This document shows, in pieces, positions 3,708 to 9,232 of a stretch of 64,000 bases of DNA. The stretch's first letter is position 1; every line of letters starts with the position of its first letter. The position numbers and the translations under genes were made by a program. Source of the DNA: Shewanella livingstonensis (GTDB lineage Bacteria; Pseudomonadota; Gammaproteobacteria; Enterobacterales; Shewanellaceae); contig NZ_CP034015.1 of NCBI RefSeq assembly GCF_003855395.1, positions 2,862,001 through 2,926,000 of the forward strand, written 5' to 3'. The notes under the pieces were generated by a model. The model worked only from the letters and a program-made list of their open reading frames with translations. It had not been told where the DNA came from and made no database searches.

Positions 3708-4380
3708 AGGGATACCTTGTTGTTTGAGTCGAAGGGTTGTTCACAACTTGATGGTTCATCGTGTCGACGATGATTCCATTTGTTCGATTTCTGGAAGCGG
3801 ATCTTGTCAGCATATATGTCGAAGGCCTGCGCTGTGATATTAGAAAGAGCCTGAGAGAAATGGATGGAACCAACACCCATGGTAACGACTCGTTATACTA
3901 ATGGAAAGCTTAGCTTGCTGCATCAGCAAAATTGAGATCATGTCATATGATATCTATTCTAACTTATGGCCTGCGGCCACTAACGTCGTGGCGCTTCACC
4001 CACACCAGACCAAAAGGAAACCAACGGCTGTTCCCTCTTGGATCACCCAGCCGCCCCGCAACATTTTCAAACGGCGAAAAGGTCGCCATGGGGGTTAAAT
4101 TTAACTTTGAGCTGCATTTGCAGACTGCTTCGGCCTTATTCGAAAATGCTAACGCTTCCGATGGTACATCCTGTACCGCGAAAGCTAAGCTCACATCCAT
4201 GTGAGCTTCACGTCATTTTCTTCAACGTCCTCAAGTTCGGAGTTGAATTTAGGCATTTTTAAAGAAATGAAAATTCATTTCCAAAAACAAAAAAAACACC
4301 TATAAACTATTGTTTATTAATTACTTTCCCTTTATTCAACTAAATTCTGCTCGGGCCCAAAGGCCTGTTGCAACCCGCTC

Positions 4381-4417
4381 GTCGTCCCGGCAATGTTTTT
4401 GAGCCGGGATCCAGGTG
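4381..4417. repeat. REP-like palindrome GTCGTCCCGGC...GCCGGGATCCAG
   Basis: GTCGTCCCGGCAATG, a short T-rich loop, then GAGCCGGGATCCAG. The CCCGGC/GCCGGG arms pair. It is the same unit as at 4561-4597, 4701-4723 (half copy) and, inverted, the triple copy at 8951-9087. Confidence 0.75.
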
Positions 4418-4560
4418 TTTGTTTTGTACTTTTGTATTTATGCCCGCTCACGTATTCACTTGTAAAAAGTCTTCAACGGCCTCAAGTTCAGAGTTCAATT
4501 TAGGCATTTCAAGCTGAGGCATCTAACTCATTTTTGGATAGAAGCTTGTTAGCTACTTTC

Positions 4561-4597
4561 TCGTCGTCCCGGCAATGCTTTTTAGCCGGGACGACGA
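4561..4597. repeat. REP-like perfect hairpin
   Basis: Thirteen-base arms TCGTCGTCCCGGC / GCCGGGACGACGA pair exactly around an 11-base loop, making this the most symmetric member of the local REP-like family. Confidence 0.8.
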
Positions 4598-4700
4598 TGT
4601 TAGCTTTTGTTGTTTGGTCGTTTTGTACCTATAATCTGCGGCCACTGGCACCAGACCAGATTATGGTAGTAAGTTGTTAACTGACACAGGCTAATTTAAC

Positions 4701-4723
4701 CGTCGTCCCGGTAATAGTTTTTA
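4701..4723. repeat. Half copy of the REP-like unit
   Basis: CGTCGTCCCGGTAATAG matches the left arm of the 4561-4597 unit; the right arm is missing, replaced by a T/A-rich run. This is a decayed or truncated copy. Confidence 0.55.
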
Positions 4724-4939
4724 GTTTTTAGTTTTTTTAAGTTAAATCGGCTAATAAGCAAACTAAAGTAGTACGATAAATAATTTGTTTATTTTGTAAT
4801 ACAATGAAATAAATGAATTTTTATTTATTGTAGAGTCTTGGACCCACTTTTAATGCGCAAGCCCGCTTTTATTTGCCAGAGGAGCTAAATAAAACTGCTT
4901 TACAACAATAAGTTAGCAAATGTAGGATGTTATTAATCA

Positions 4940-4991
4940 ATAACTTGAACGGCCGACTTTAAATTTATTTGGCAGTTCAATAAGCTGTTAT
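4940..4991 (+). repeat. attC-like site upstream of the first cassette
   Basis: ATAAC at 4940-4944 and GTTAT at 4987-4991 are complementary end cores. Inside, CTTGAACGGCC (4944-4954) pairs imperfectly with GGCAGTTCAATAAG (4971-4984), leaving the unpaired bases typical of integron attC hairpins. The right core GTTATGAATGC (4987-4997) is repeated inverted after the next gene, as expected for a cassette junction. Confidence 0.6.
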
Positions 4992-5024
4992 GAATGCCTG
5001 AGATTTGGAGTGTGATTTTAACTT

Positions 5025-5588
5025 ATGGATAAAAGAGAAATAGCTGCAAACTTAATACTACGAGCTGTTAAGTCATACGTAAATGCACAAAATGATATGG
5101 ATTACATACAAGCTATTTTATTAGCTGGTTCTTCTGTTGGAATAACAGAACCATTATTGAAAGAGCAACAAACTAAAACGGCTACGGAAAAATCAACTGA
5201 TGTAATAATGAAGATGCGTGCATCTGATATTTTTTGGGAAGGTAATAAGTTAGTTATTAACCAAAAAACTAAAAATTTAAGTCGCAGGGAAAGAGAGGAT
5301 ATATCTAAAAGTACACGGATTTTTGATCGCGGTATCTATAATGCCCTCAAACATACTGGTATACCTCAACAAGACTTAAGCCCTTCTGATGATGTTATTA
5401 TTGAAGCAGACTTTCAAAGTGAGGCAGAGGAAATTATTTATGATGCAGTGCATGATTTTAATTCCTTAAAATTTGATGAAAATTTTCAATATCATCAACT
5501 TCCTGAAGATATAATTATTTTATTAAATTGTAGTGATCCTATGGGTATTATACCTGAGCCTGTTGCAAAACAGCGTACGCATTCATAA
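5025..5588 (+). CDS. Cassette gene 1: unknown alpha-helical protein, possibly HEPN-like
   Basis: A 187-residue acidic, AT-rich protein of unknown function. It sits alone between GTTATGAATGC (4987) and its inverse GCATTCATAA (5579-5588), the borders of an integron cassette. Residues 24-45 (Asp-Tyr-Ile-Gln-Ala-Ile-Leu-Leu-Ala-Gly-Ser-Ser) and 100-112 (Arg-x-x-x-Asn-Ala-Leu-Lys-His) resemble the helical pattern and the R/N-x-x-K-H region of some HEPN-type or HEPN-adjacent uncharacterised proteins; this is a weak visual match, not a family call. GGAG lies about 15 bases before the ATG, so the start is moderately supported. The stop codon abuts a group II intron remnant on the other strand. Confidence 0.7.
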   Translation: MDKREIAANLILRAVKSYVNAQNDMDYIQAILLAGSSVGITEPLLKEQQTKTATEKSTDVIMKMRASDIFWEGNKLVINQKTKNLSRREREDISKSTRIFDRGIYNALKHTGIPQQDLSPSDDVIIEADFQSEAEEIIYDAVHDFNSLKFDENFQYHQLPEDIIILLNCSDPMGIIPEPVAKQRTHS

Positions 5589-6374
5589 TCGATCTAGCCT
5601 CCAGACCAACCTACATGCGGCTCCGCACACGACTGAATGGATTCAGGAGGTAGAGCAACGCAGGAGCATATTGCCGAGGGCGGTTCATTTAGAACACCTA
5701 ACCTAAACGTTCTGGTTAGGATAATGAACTGCAATCCATCCATATCTTAGTGAATATAATCCTGCTTTCTTAACTTATTCGAGCTTGGCATTACTCAATA
5801 TTTTTCTGTTTCCCCAGTCATCACTGAAAACAAGAGTCGAGCTACGCCAAGGGCCTTTACTTGTGATACCCAAAACACTTCGTGAGGTAGGCCCTCCCAC
5901 CAGGGCAACCGCATGAGTGTGCATTTTTTGCTCATAATGAGTAATTTAAATACTGAATCACTTTCAATCATTCATGAAATGATGGCGTACTGAACAAATT
6001 AAGTTTTAAAAACGCACCTAACCTGTACGAAAAACATTCATATTCTTGCCCTGGCCCTCCCACAAGCAACAGCTGCTTAAAAATGTAGTGGCATGGTTTT
6101 TTGGTTTCGTCGTCTTGTACCCATGCTTTGCGAGGCAGCCCCTGCCAACTAATCCCTAGCCTATGCCTCATATGATGTTCTTGTTCATCGGCCAGCATTC
6201 TTTATCATAAGAAGGCTAGCGGCTTCCTCCGGACCAAACCTTGCGATTAAGCCCTTGCCATTCGCTAGTAGTTAACGTTTAATAACAGTATGTTATTCTC
6301 TAATTGATAAGAGTAACGGTGACCTTCCTACAGAGGACTTGCACCTCATTAGTTCATGCCCATGCTGGGCGTAC
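5588..6374 (-). mobile_element. Group IIC-type intron, RT-less remnant A, inserted in attC
   Basis: Read on the bottom strand, the 5' end begins GTACGCCCAGCATGGGC (6374 downward) followed by GAGGTGCAAGTCCTC (about 6347-6333), typical group II intron domain I sequence. The 3' end (about 5680-5588) carries a domain V/VI-like region ending CTAGATCGAT. The flanks read CTTGT | intron | TATGAATG, i.e. insertion at TTGT^TA of the attC bottom strand, the known target of group IIC-attC introns. At 787 bp it lacks a reverse transcriptase. Compared with copy C, 13 nt of domain VI, including the likely branch-point A, are missing. It is therefore probably dead. Confidence 0.7.
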
Positions 6375-6465
6375 ACAAGCGTATGTTGCATCAGCCACTG
6401 CATGGCTTGGACGGTTTTCCCGCTCGTGCCTTGCTACAAAACCGCCGCAAATACGGGCGTTATAT
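6375..6465 (+). repeat. attC site of cassette 1 (split by intron A)
   Basis: Runs from ACAAGCG just outside the intron to the core GTTATAT (6459-6465). Imperfect outer arms AGCGTATGTTGC / GCCGCAAATACGGGC and an exact inner stem CGGTTTT / AAAACCG give the long bulged hairpin of chromosomal-integron attC sites. Confidence 0.7.
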
Positions 6466-6478
6466 TTCTGGAGGGGTT

Positions 6479-7486
6479 ATGAAGAATAAAACGAAAAAAA
6501 ATCATTTTAGCCCTGTTTTCGCCAATCAATATTGGACGAGTGAGGTTAGTGGTTGGCACTATAAATATTATTACTATTGTCCATATCGCAAGTGTGTTGT
6601 CGATTCTCAAAAAGATAAAGGTAAGACTGCTTGGGGTTATGAATTTCATTTATATTCTCAGGAGTTAGAGGATCGGCTTGATTCTGAATTAGAAAATGAC
6701 TCGGCACCACTCTACGAAAAGCTTTTAAATAATGACACTTTAGATGCTGATGAAAGAATGAAATGGGGGCAGTTTATTGTTACCCAATCTATGAGAACTC
6801 CAAGTTTTTTCAAGTATCGTGACGAACTTGAAAAAGCACATGGCGGTGACGAATCCTATAAAGAAACTATCATCGGTTGCCAATGGTGCGAAGATAATAA
6901 ATATGTTGCTTGTCGAGATTGGATTATTCTTGAAGCTGCTGAAGATGATTTCTTTGTTCGGACGGATAATCCTGTTTATATGACAGGGTTTCTTCAAAAC
7001 CCAAGCACTACAATATTTTATCCTTTGAGTCCTAAAAAGTGTTTTGTTGCTTGTTCTTTTATTGAAATGCGGTTCACGCTAATAGGAGAAGAACTGCCTT
7101 TTCCAAAGCAAGAAGTATTGAAGCTAGAGAAAGGTGATGCATATAAAATTAATTTTGACCTTATTAAGTCAGCTTCTACTTCTCTAATTGTTGCAAAAAG
7201 CGACAACAATCGAGTAATCAGCAAAATGAATGTTGAACTTCTTGGCGCCTTCCCACAAATTCCATTTATGTTATCTTCAGCAGAAAATGATTATGCGGAA
7301 TCAATTGAAATTGAAAAGATAATTCAATTAATGTCATATTCCGATGGAATTGAATATCCAGAATACAGGGAGTATGAGCTTAAGCCATTTTATGGGGTTG
7401 AGTTTTCAATGGGGATTAATCCATTCTCTGTTTTTGGTGTAACCAATGAACGGTTAAAAGAGTTGCACCCCGAAATAGAAATATAA
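6479..7486 (+). CDS. Cassette gene 2: DUF4238-like protein
   Basis: The protein is 335 residues from the ATG at 6479. The frame is open back to 6356, but that part lies in the attC site, and GGAGGGG at 6470-6476 precedes this ATG. Residues ~8-14 (Asn-His-Phe-Ser-Pro-Val-Phe) correspond to the His-x-x-Pro start of DUF4238 proteins. Later blocks also fit: an Arg-Thr-Pro-containing helix near 108-115, Arg-Thr-Asp-Asn-Pro-Val near 160, and Phe-Tyr-Pro-Leu-Ser-Pro-Lys near 180. The function of DUF4238 is unknown. The gene lies between GTTATATTTC (6459) and its exact inverse GAAATATAAC (7478), so it is a mobile cassette. AT-rich, unlike flanking core genes. Confidence 0.75.
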   Translation: MKNKTKKNHFSPVFANQYWTSEVSGWHYKYYYYCPYRKCVVDSQKDKGKTAWGYEFHLYSQELEDRLDSELENDSAPLYEKLLNNDTLDADERMKWGQFIVTQSMRTPSFFKYRDELEKAHGGDESYKETIIGCQWCEDNKYVACRDWIILEAAEDDFFVRTDNPVYMTGFLQNPSTTIFYPLSPKKCFVACSFIEMRFTLIGEELPFPKQEVLKLEKGDAYKINFDLIKSASTSLIVAKSDNNRVISKMNVELLGAFPQIPFMLSSAENDYAESIEIEKIIQLMSYSDGIEYPEYREYELKPFYGVEFSMGINPFSVFGVTNERLKELHPEIEI

Positions 7487-7536
7487 CTAACAAGGATAGG
7501 CCGCGCGAAGCCGCGTCCTTATCCCAAGTGTTGAAC
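7481..7536 (+). repeat. Short intact attC site of cassette 2
   Basis: Begins ATATAAC (7481-7487) and ends GTTGAAC (7530-7536, a GTTRRRY core). Between them AAGGATAGG pairs with CCTTATCC with one unpaired base, and CCGCGCGAAGCCGCG forms the tip. About 56 bp is near the minimum attC length. No intron has entered this copy. Confidence 0.6.
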
Positions 7537-7624
7537 AAGCCCGAACAGCTGGAGCGACTCTTTATTATGTAATTAACAGCTCGACAAAAAGCGCTGTTTG
7601 ATGTGATGGTTATCTGGTAACTTT

Positions 7625-7767
7625 TCTGTAGCCTGCAAACTCATCTCTAGCCTACGCCTCATATGATGTCCTTGTTCATAAACTCGCATTCTTTATCACA
7701 AAAGAGTAACGGTGGCTTTCCTACATGGAACTTTCACCGCATTAGTTCATGCCCATGCAGGGCGTAC
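7625..7767 (-). mobile_element. Group IIC intron remnant B (5' end only)
   Basis: Bottom strand starts GTACGCCCTGCATGGGC at 7767 and matches the 5' part of remnant A through the AACTAATG, TAGGAAAG-CACCG and TCATATGAGGCGTAGG segments. It lacks a ~95-bp piece present in A. Similarity fades near 7625, so only the first ~140 nt survive. The junction CGCTTTGT | GTACG again fits attC TTGT^TA. Short fragment 7537-7624 to its left has no recognisable gene. Confidence 0.65.
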
Positions 7768-7866
7768 ACAAAGCGCTTTAAAACGGAACTAAAACGGTTG
7801 GCTCGGTTCCGCTTCGCTACACATTATAGCCAACCATTTTAGTCCGCTTAAGCGGAGCGTTATAGG
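7768..7866 (+). repeat. attC site next to intron remnant B
   Basis: ACAAAGCGCTTTAAAACGG to GCGTTATAGG. The long arm GGAACTAAAACGGTTGGCT pairs with AGCCAACCATTTTAGTCC with one extra-helical base, the classic attC fold, and the outer arms AGCGCTTTAAAACGG / CCGCTTAAGCGGAGCG are imperfect. It ends with core GTTATAG (7859-7865), immediately before the next cassette gene. Confidence 0.75.
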
Positions 7867-7873
7867 TGTTCTC

Positions 7874-8392
7874 ATGGTTTCGCGTAGAAAAATTAAAGAG
7901 GCACACGAAAATAGTGTCTTAGCTTCATTCGGTGAATATCTCAAAGGCAAAGGGCAATCACTAACCGTGAAAACTCAACCAGATCCACCAGATGCTTTTG
8001 TAGAAATTGATGGCACTGACACTTGGATAGAGATTACCGATGCATTTTACAGCCAAGATGTTGCTATTAGCATTACTTCTTATGGCGCAGATGACGTTCC
8101 ACATAGGCCTTCACAAGGTGGTTTAATTTCCGATCCTGATGAAATAACTAACAAGGTTGTGTCAGTTATTTCTGAAAAACTTAACAAGCAAACAATGACT
8201 TCTATAGCCAACTCAAATGGAAAAGGAATACTTTTAGTTGGGTTGTATGGCCCTTTTTTTGACTTAGATGAAGTTGTTAATAACTTACCCAAAACTTTAA
8301 TAAACGATTTAGCAAATCAACAAGTGTTCGGCTCGGTTTATTTATACGAAACCTGCAATACTAATGTACATAAGTATAAAAAGGTTCTGTAA
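7874..8392 (+). CDS. Cassette gene 3: unknown protein, possible PD-(D/E)XK-like nuclease
   Basis: The protein has 172 residues and no family I can name. Residues 36-55 read Pro-Asp-Pro-Pro-Asp-Ala-Phe then Trp-Ile-Glu-Ile-Thr. An Asp followed about 12 residues later by Glu-x-Thr after a hydrophobic strand recalls the core of PD-(D/E)XK nuclease folds, in which the final Lys is often replaced. This is a hint only. The gene starts 8 bases after the attC core GTTATAG (7859), and the inverse core CCTATA occurs at 8399-8404, so it is a cassette insert. No good ribosome site is visible before the ATG, which is common for cassette genes. Confidence 0.65.
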   Translation: MVSRRKIKEAHENSVLASFGEYLKGKGQSLTVKTQPDPPDAFVEIDGTDTWIEITDAFYSQDVAISITSYGADDVPHRPSQGGLISDPDEITNKVVSVISEKLNKQTMTSIANSNGKGILLVGLYGPFFDLDEVVNNLPKTLINDLANQQVFGSVYLYETCNTNVHKYKKVL

Positions 8393-8404
8393 TAAATACC
8401 TATA

Positions 8405-8530
8405 ATCGGGTAGCCGGAGGTATCTAGCCTCCAGCCCTCACACCACCCTGCATGCGGCTCCGCACACGACTGAATGGATTCAGGAGGTAGAGCAACGCAG
8501 GAGCATGTTGCCGAGGGCGGTTCATTTACT
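8405..8530 (-). mobile_element. Group IIC intron remnant C (3' end, domains V-VI)
   Basis: Bottom strand ends ...CCTCCGGCTACCCGAT at 8405 followed by 3' exon TATAGG, completing the TTGT^TA target. The terminal hairpin GGGCTGGAGG / CCTCCGG-CTA-CCC fits domain VI, with an unpaired A seven bases from the 3' end as branch-point candidate. About 108 bp (8422-8529) are nearly identical to 5592-5701 in remnant A. No matching 5' end lies to the right, so it is 5'-truncated. Confidence 0.65.
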
Positions 8531-8950
8531 CTCTTTAAAGAAATGACCTAACTCACTTTCTGGTTATGAATTTAGTAGGATAAAACAGTTCAATACTTGT
8601 CCTACAAGCTAATTTATGTCCAGAAATGCATTCGATCGTTCAATTACAAACAAGGTTAAATCGAAGATAACTATACGGCGGATGTCATCGCAGCTATGAC
8701 CTTCGAAAACAGGGATGTTTTCGCAGAGCGCCCAGGGATGGGTTTACCGCGTGTCATAGAAGTGATTACATTGAGTATCGTTACCTAGCACTATCGTTTA
8801 GTCTGCATTAAATTTTTTAACACTTTCCGTCCAAAAATGAGCTAGATAGCATCTAAATTAGTGACCAACTTTCATTGGCCACTCTTGTTATGGTGTGGGC
8901 GAAGCGACGTTAGCGGCCGCGGTCCATAAACGACAAAAGTACAACGTAAA
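8531..8950. other. Non-coding stretch with decayed repeats
   Basis: No gene supported. It contains a CAGGGATG...CCAGGGATGGGTTTACCGCGTG block near 8700-8750, which looks like a dispersed intergenic repeat. Near 8890-8920 is an inverted copy of the GCGGCCACTAACGTCG block of 3970-4008. Confidence 0.5.
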
Positions 8951-9087
8951 CACCTGGATCCCGGCTTAAAAGCATTGCCGGGACGACGATTAATGAAACA
9001 TCTGGATCCCGGCTCAAAAGCATTGCCGGGACGACGGTTAATGAAACACCCGGATCCCGGCTCAAAACCATTGCCGGGACGACGAGA
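8951..9087. repeat. Three tandem 48-bp REP-like units
   Basis: Units start at 8951, 8999 and 9047, exactly 48 bp apart. Each has CTGGATCCCGGCT, an A-rich loop, GCCGGGACGACG and a TTAATGAAACA spacer; the third has CCGGATCC and loses the spacer. They are inverted relative to the 4381-4723 copies. Because 48 is a multiple of three, an accidental frame encoding a 16-residue repeat runs across the units on the minus strand. Confidence 0.85.
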
Positions 9088-9232
9088 AAGTAGTTAACAA
9101 CCAATGTTAACTTCAGGCGACCGCTTATGCTAATCACACTGTTTACTGATGATGAATTGCGCTCATGTTGCAGGTGAAATAAACCCGTTTTTATTGATGT
9201 GCCAAACCACGTATAAATAACTCAACGCTTAG

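Follow-up and report, generated by a model that had tools for sequence, protein, structure and literature searches.

The window analysed here, a stretch of 64,000 nucleotides of the Shewanella livingstonensis chromosome (C1:2862001-2926000; the genome is one contig of 4.84 Mb), carries near its left end three plus-strand cassette genes, each bordered by an integron core site and by the inverse of that core. These genes are preceded by a segment that, in other Shewanella integrons, lies between the integron integrase gene intI and the first cassette. From sequence comparison, we consider it highly probable that this locus is an attI platform without an integrase gene, holding three cassettes inserted by the integrase (IntI), and that the genome has about ten attI copies in all, this one included, which are likely served in trans. 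Its features, in window coordinates, are the following:

4731..4992, plus strand: intI-attI intergenic segment without intI (attI platform), recognised by homology to the intI-attI segments of relatives
4899..4928, plus strand: putative cassette promoter TTTACA-N18-TAGGAT, from a sequence scan and its conservation across attI copies
4918..4990, plus strand: attI core, ending in AATAAGCT followed by GTTA, with the crossover at G4987; the homology between copies stops past GTTA
5025..5588, plus strand: cassette 1 gene, 187 aa, no family found
5579..5588, plus strand: inverse core (R'') GCATTCATAA of cassette 1, cut by an intron
5589..6376, minus strand: decayed group IIC-attC intron without a reverse transcriptase (RT) gene, 5' end at about 6376 and 3' end at about 5589, both uncertain by 1-2 nt
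6375..6465, plus strand: remainder of the cassette 1 attC, up to the core GTTATATTTC; freed of the intron, the junction folds into a hairpin (z -2.3)
6479..7486, plus strand: cassette 2 gene, 335 aa, DUF4238 (PF14022; 59.6 bits, cut-off 27)
7478..7487, plus strand: inverse core GAAATATAAC of cassette 2
7483..7638, strand not assigned: terminal piece of an IS91-like element, including the 7481-7536 hairpin, recognised by similarity to copies in the genome
7632..7769, minus strand: two fragments from the 5' part of a second group IIC-attC intron (90% to intron positions 1-68 and 90% to 177-239)
7768..7866, plus strand: remainder of the cassette 2 attC, up to the core GTTATAGGTG; freed of the intron, the junction folds into a hairpin (z -4.9)
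7874..8392, plus strand: cassette 3 gene, 172 aa, no family found
8398..8405, plus strand: inverse core ACCTATAA of cassette 3, cut by the 3' end of an intron
8404..8528, minus strand: truncated 3' end of a third group IIC-attC intron (98% over intron positions 2032-2094)

Matching core and inverse-core borders are the mark of circular cassette insertion by an integron integrase. The three pairs listed in a preliminary description of this DNA (4987/5579, 6459/7478 and 7859/8398) were found where it had placed them, and its reading of them as products of IntI-type excision and insertion is supported, the core matching its inverse near the stop codon over 10, 10 and 8 nt for cassettes 1, 2 and 3, respectively, counted from the TT of each core. 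Chance inverted repeats could produce such borders, and matches of at least 8 nt were indeed obtained in 3 of 252 control pairings, in which other GTT sites of 4700-8700 were set against the same three stop regions; but here all three genes have one, and the cognate cores and crossovers of relatives, presented below, also speak against chance, which is excluded for practical purposes. Among the cassette genes of the window, a search with PADLOC for a defence role gave no match. Moreover, the comparison for an empty site between SelO and MesX left no pre-insertion junction readable, since the two genes are not neighbours in the relatives compared. A repeat around CGTCGTCCCGGCAATG, with copies at 4378-4607 and 8933-9100 in opposite orientation, flanks the array on both sides, and DNA similar to this repeat lies to the left of other attI copies too.

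The segment heading the array identifies it. The best copies of 4731-4992 in relatives reached 82-92% over most of its length, and in genome G115 the alignment (83%) spans the whole 262 bp, with an intI match lying about 75 bp away. Against the attI beside the only intI of the S. livingstonensis genome, the segment showed 76% (query 115-260); window 4780-5000 aligns with the stretch that separates this intI from its first cassette, and AATAAGCTGTTA ends both. Used as a query, the segment matched 33 of 129 genomes of the genus, often in several copies (best six candidates at most per genome). The hairpin at 4940-4991, one of four that had been called attC-like, is on these alignments attI and not attC, and folds slightly better than shuffles (z -1.9); among the other three, that at 7481-7536 is the IS91-like end, and those at 6375-6465 and 7768-7866 stand as attC sites lacking their R'' end. 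We also considered the attI segment as the attC of a preceding cassette, a candidate that was rejected (the inverse of the R box recurs upstream in 1 of 72 copies, control 1.3%). The inverted repeat of six pairs within attI displays paired changes among 73 distinct copies (AACGGC/GCCGTT and AAGGGC/GCCCTT), as if by structural need; this stem is 90.0% paired, compared with a mean of 84.8% and a maximum of 87.9% in shuffles, an excess that relatedness alone can cause.

An integron is usually regarded as one integrase beside one attI. In this genome, a single intI exceeds the TIGR02249 cut-off (C1:1089873-1090805; 352.8 bits), at about 1.77 Mb from the window array, and the attI core pattern, allowing up to three mismatches, has 11 matches, nine of them with at most one mismatch and two with three, which look degenerate. 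One degenerate copy, at locus L274 (C1:1652905-1658433), lies downstream of smpB (PF01668, 107 bits), a region that is a common neighbourhood of inserted elements. In each of 14 other genomes, chosen as those with matches to the window attI segment, the pattern was found 2-12 times, and the reversed pattern had no match in any of the 15 genomes. Furthermore, the exact pattern occurs in 79 stretches among 84,980 species genomes, possibly not including the window genome's own records, and all 79 are from Shewanella. Among 40 attI copies of five genomes, drawn from a larger number listed, intI lies directly upstream of 3; over all loci analysed, which hold 128 distinct copies, intI (called at a minimum of 45% identity) was upstream of 15 of the 103 copies with at least 1400 bp of upstream DNA, and of 17 of the 123 with at least 500 bp. 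The putative promoter was not above chance when a single sequence was scanned (2 found, 2.1 expected); across the 128 copies, TTTACA is exact in 83 and TAGGAT is present in 127, the latter figure being helped by the search pattern.

These results bear on whether the locus is an ordinary cluster of attC sites lacking an integrase (CALIN), with cassettes placed at a secondary site (attG) or left over from a broken array, and with 4940-4991 being just an attC. No intI is nearby, and its absence from the window, as previously claimed, held in a tblastn search with the genome's own IntI (best E 2.6); in Shewanella, both CALINs and single cassettes are frequent (PMC9229058), and attI does contain an inverted repeat. 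Nevertheless, up to 262 bp of homology to the intI-attI region, together with the adjoining of core and intI in the copies counted above, largely contradict an ordinary CALIN, which we regard as very improbable. The array starts at attI, so that both possibilities offered by the preliminary description, an orphan attC cluster and the tail of some longer array, miss its nature. Measured as a complete integron, it has attI at its head and cassettes with core and inverse core, and no intI adjoins it; measured as a CALIN (at least two attC and no intI), it has no attC recognised as it stands, and two attC-like hairpins once the intron ends are removed in script.

The scattered copies could instead be fossils, every locus having once been a complete integron from which intI was separately deleted, leaving attI and cassettes in place. 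Such decay would fit the perfect LexA-like box CTGTN8ACAG kept in 38 of 106 intI-less copies (14 of 17 among intI-linked copies; other spacings, 0-1 of 106), the intI start that several intI-less copies retain, as judged by eye, and the intI fragments of several genomes. However, past the intI start the same non-intI sequence is found by eye at different loci of one genome, as in L268 and L270 here and in L290, L295 and L298 of G115. Because several loci of one genome share this identical sequence, it suggests that intI was lost first, in one event, and that the copies spread later, the shared deletion junctions being partly seen. Moreover, at one locus where none of the six genomes compared has intI, the cassettes differ, and we consider separate decay at every locus rather doubtful. 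The tail 'KPVTDEV', located past the intI start in some intI-less copies, matches no listed IntI C-terminus (7 of 37 intI loci gave none), and the left boundaries of attI copies differ between families, with no clear element end.

What happens downstream of the intI-less copies speaks for their use in recombination. A crossover motif was recognised in 106 of the 128 copies and the others were left out, so that GTT itself is selected in what follows. The copies diverge at the crossover, between G and TT: the mean pairwise identity of 86 intI-less copies falls from 0.74 in the 12 nt before it to 0.31 at nt 4-16 after it and 0.28 beyond, and that of 15 intI-linked copies from 0.76 to 0.31 and 0.28. 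Within 2.4 kb downstream, 32 of 64 intI-less copies had a cognate inverse core of 9 nt or more vs 2.8% of non-cognate pairings, and 22 of 64 had one of 10 nt or more vs 0.84%; in the first cognate run, with 34 copies (three intI-linked), 12 had at least 9 nt and 9 at least 10 nt. The window copy scored low in the strict cognate test (5 nt), because the intron cuts between TA and AC. Judged by these signatures, the intI-less copies look like working attI sites.

In this context, common loci were informative. Clustering of 102 copies by their upstream flank gave 16 groups, one of which is the intI group, with 11 members, the others being intI-less apart from one member. One intI-less locus is common to six genomes (G060, KJ10-1, S. 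saliphila, S. inventionis, S. metallivivens and S. ulleungensis), which share 1.6-3.3 kb of upstream DNA (84-91% relative to L333, taken as reference). This DNA includes the gene of a 525-aa protein without a Pfam family match, and in some genomes insertions separate it from attI. There, pairwise homology stops 3-37 nt past the crossover, and the six first cassettes are unlike, with no DNA similarity in the first 600 nt past that point; further downstream, repeat or transposase-like DNA is common to some members. Another locus, that of L305, L306 and L307, holds tandem attI copies with partly different cassettes.

In the window, all three R'' boxes have been interrupted. The intron at 5589-6376 matches that of locus L078 at 93% over the first 278 nt and at 74% over 194 nt towards the 3' end, and the final 37 nt that match do so at 86%. 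The L078 intron, which has an RT gene whose frame ends early at 343 aa, sits within an attC, between TA and ACAAG of R'', and the window is cut in the same way, reading GCATTCATA, then the intron, then ACAAGCG. A dispersed repeat of about 150 bp lies inside the decayed intron, at about 5901-6053, and recurs at 12 other places of the genome. After the R'' box of gene 2, the IS91-like end is joined to two fragments of an intron 5' region; three places in the genome match this end at 90-93% over 156-160 nt and a fourth at 89% over 153 nt, and the same DNA adjoins an IS91 family transposase in L077 (PF04986, NF033538), the window holding the terminal piece only and the Y2 transposase being in L077. 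The third attC has been replaced by an intron 3' end, in which 8430-8528 repeats 5593-5691 at 93%, and the rest of that attC and of the array is missing after cassette 3. Insertion in the R'' box of attC, in the orientation opposite to the cassettes, is that of group IIC-attC introns; no RT was found in the window's intron copies, and no Rfam match at gathering scores was obtained in the window.

Such introns are frequent, the 5' end being present in 47 of 117 genomes searched. From the 60 stretches around intron 5' ends that were analysed, among those listed, and with L078, 40 intron copies have both ends; 17 are shorter than 1 kb, hence without an RT gene, and several of these share one stretch with another copy. 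GCGTTR lies 40-150 nt away in 45 of 61 distinct intron 5' flanks vs 6.3% of random windows from the same loci. Since introns and the IS91-like element invaded the R'' box in each of the window's three attC sites and then decayed, its cassettes can probably no longer be excised. The window array is real, headed by attI, intI-less and probably frozen. A second type of group II intron, on the plus strand and with a 429-aa RT, occurs in L077 (12204-14057) and L078 (about 4175-6028), the L077 copy starting directly past the GCGTTA of an attC. Both loci also carry IS91-like elements with an extra tyrosine recombinase gene (L077 9723-11683 and L078 6930-8752), and that of L077 sits between the R'' box and the remainder of an attC.

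An attC covariance model was built from 24 of the intron 5'-flank sequences (16 pairs). It matched the integron of this genome and other arrays (E 4e-9 to 1e-3), and among 37 intI-less loci (L265-L304) it gave E<0.01 in 13, or in 12 without the training sequence L303. In these 12 loci, 20 of the 21 matches lie downstream, in array orientation, while the other, in L288, belongs to the array of an adjacent attI, that of L285. Locus L270, from this genome, comprises attI, a cassette with a gene like PADLOC PDC-S51 (363 bits), an attC and a second cassette.

Several observations weigh against the reading of intI-less attI sites served in trans. A search with an attC covariance model had been proposed in the preliminary description as a check on the array, and the model used here matched none of the four hairpins; its best result in the window was E 0.2, at 4521-4553 on the other strand, and with filters off nothing convincing emerged. 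This absence is the first half of the outcome that the description had named as refuting its claim, the second half being a constant order of the three genes across all relatives; at other intI-less attI sites, the genes vary from genome to genome. We ascribe this failure to a cause that had not been foreseen, the introns and the IS91-like end that split the R'' boxes, an explanation weakened by L078, whose split attC was matched (24.1 bits, E 0.0012; L078 is in the training set), so that splitting of R'' does not by itself necessarily conceal a site. Furthermore, 25 of the 37 intI-less loci had no independent attC match, for half of the 64 intI-less copies no cognate inverse core reached 9 nt within 2.4 kb, and the window's own attI copy has no LexA-like box CTGTN8ACAG and belongs to no group of common loci. 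Of the 15 genomes searched for copies, two have no intact intI: G102 carries 9 copies, its best intI match being a 279-aa frame (110 bits), and G041 carries 7, with an intI fragment (138 bits); because they have copies but no intI over the cut-off, part of the attI sites may now be idle. Finally, eight intI-less copies, two of them in one genome, lie 0.7-0.9 kb past a tyrosine recombinase gene (L308, L313, L299, L303 and L269 are among them; the two genes tested are Phage_integrase, PF00589), and other elements may have carried these copies along, cassettes included.

The latter copies favour an explanation in which attI is carried along with cassettes by another mobile element, phage-like or repeat-borne, the diversity of cassettes arising from transfer of whole islands and not from IntI acting in trans; prophage M16-3 does carry such a platform (PMC9892861). 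The recombinase-associated copies have little downstream similarity, except for L313 and L269 (339 nt at 85%, about 0.6 kb downstream). On the other hand, the six genomes with a common gene neighbourhood, where no recombinase was seen, still differ from the crossover on, and we judge carriage by another element unlikely.

According to the reading we prefer, that of attI platforms served in trans, IntI from the single chromosomal gene would act, now or in the past, on any attI of the genome, and circular cassettes would recombine into the scattered sites, each of which would become a small independent array. Each attI may also carry the promoter TTTACA-N18-TAGGAT, and could then drive the expression of its cassettes. 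In the window copy, group IIC-attC introns and the IS91-like element would have entered all three R'' boxes later and decayed there. We lean, by a little, towards a distributed integron: in a group of Shewanella, attI segments freed of intI would have multiplied to become docking sites, with a single integrase filling and emptying about ten small arrays around the chromosome in trans. The window holds a decayed example of a kind widespread in these genomes. If this is true, cassette capture, and perhaps expression driven by promoters, would be distributed by the scattered intI-less attI sites among many parts of the chromosome, and a good part of the CALINs and single cassettes reported for Shewanella would be arrays headed by their own attI. 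The intI-less attI sites would also offer natural tests of IntI action in trans, and the window copy illustrates how cassettes can become locked in position by introns.

In the open-access literature, to which the search was limited, no description of numerous intI-less attI copies within single genomes was found; group IIC-attC introns and IS91-like elements in Shewanella integrons have already been described (PMC9229058), and CALINs at conserved places have been reported in Xanthomonas (PMC12444791). In comparison with the Shewanella chromosomal integron, such as that at C1:1089873, the window platform is alike in attI core, GTTA crossover, core and inverse core, and putative promoter, and differs in having neither intI nor a LexA-like box and in occurring in many copies per genome. 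Like a CALIN, it is a cassette array without intI, but it begins at attI and all its attC sites are broken. A precedent is the attI-headed CALIN of the Shewanella prophage M16-3, likewise an intI-less array starting at attI, in a prophage that also holds a complete integron; however, its attI, of the S. oneidensis type, is a single case in a prophage (PMC9892861), whereas the attI described here is of different sequence and occurs in many copies and many species. The introns follow the S.ma.I2 type of group IIC-attC introns, which lie opposite to the cassettes and insert in R'' at TTGT/T on the bottom strand (PMC7923331), as here, although the window copies are degenerate and without an RT gene. 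Lastly, the Delta-attI cassettes of class 1 and 2 integrons also place attI outside its normal position, but these are mostly short attI fragments that replace the attC downstream of a gene (PMC12901181), whereas in Shewanella whole attI regions head the arrays.

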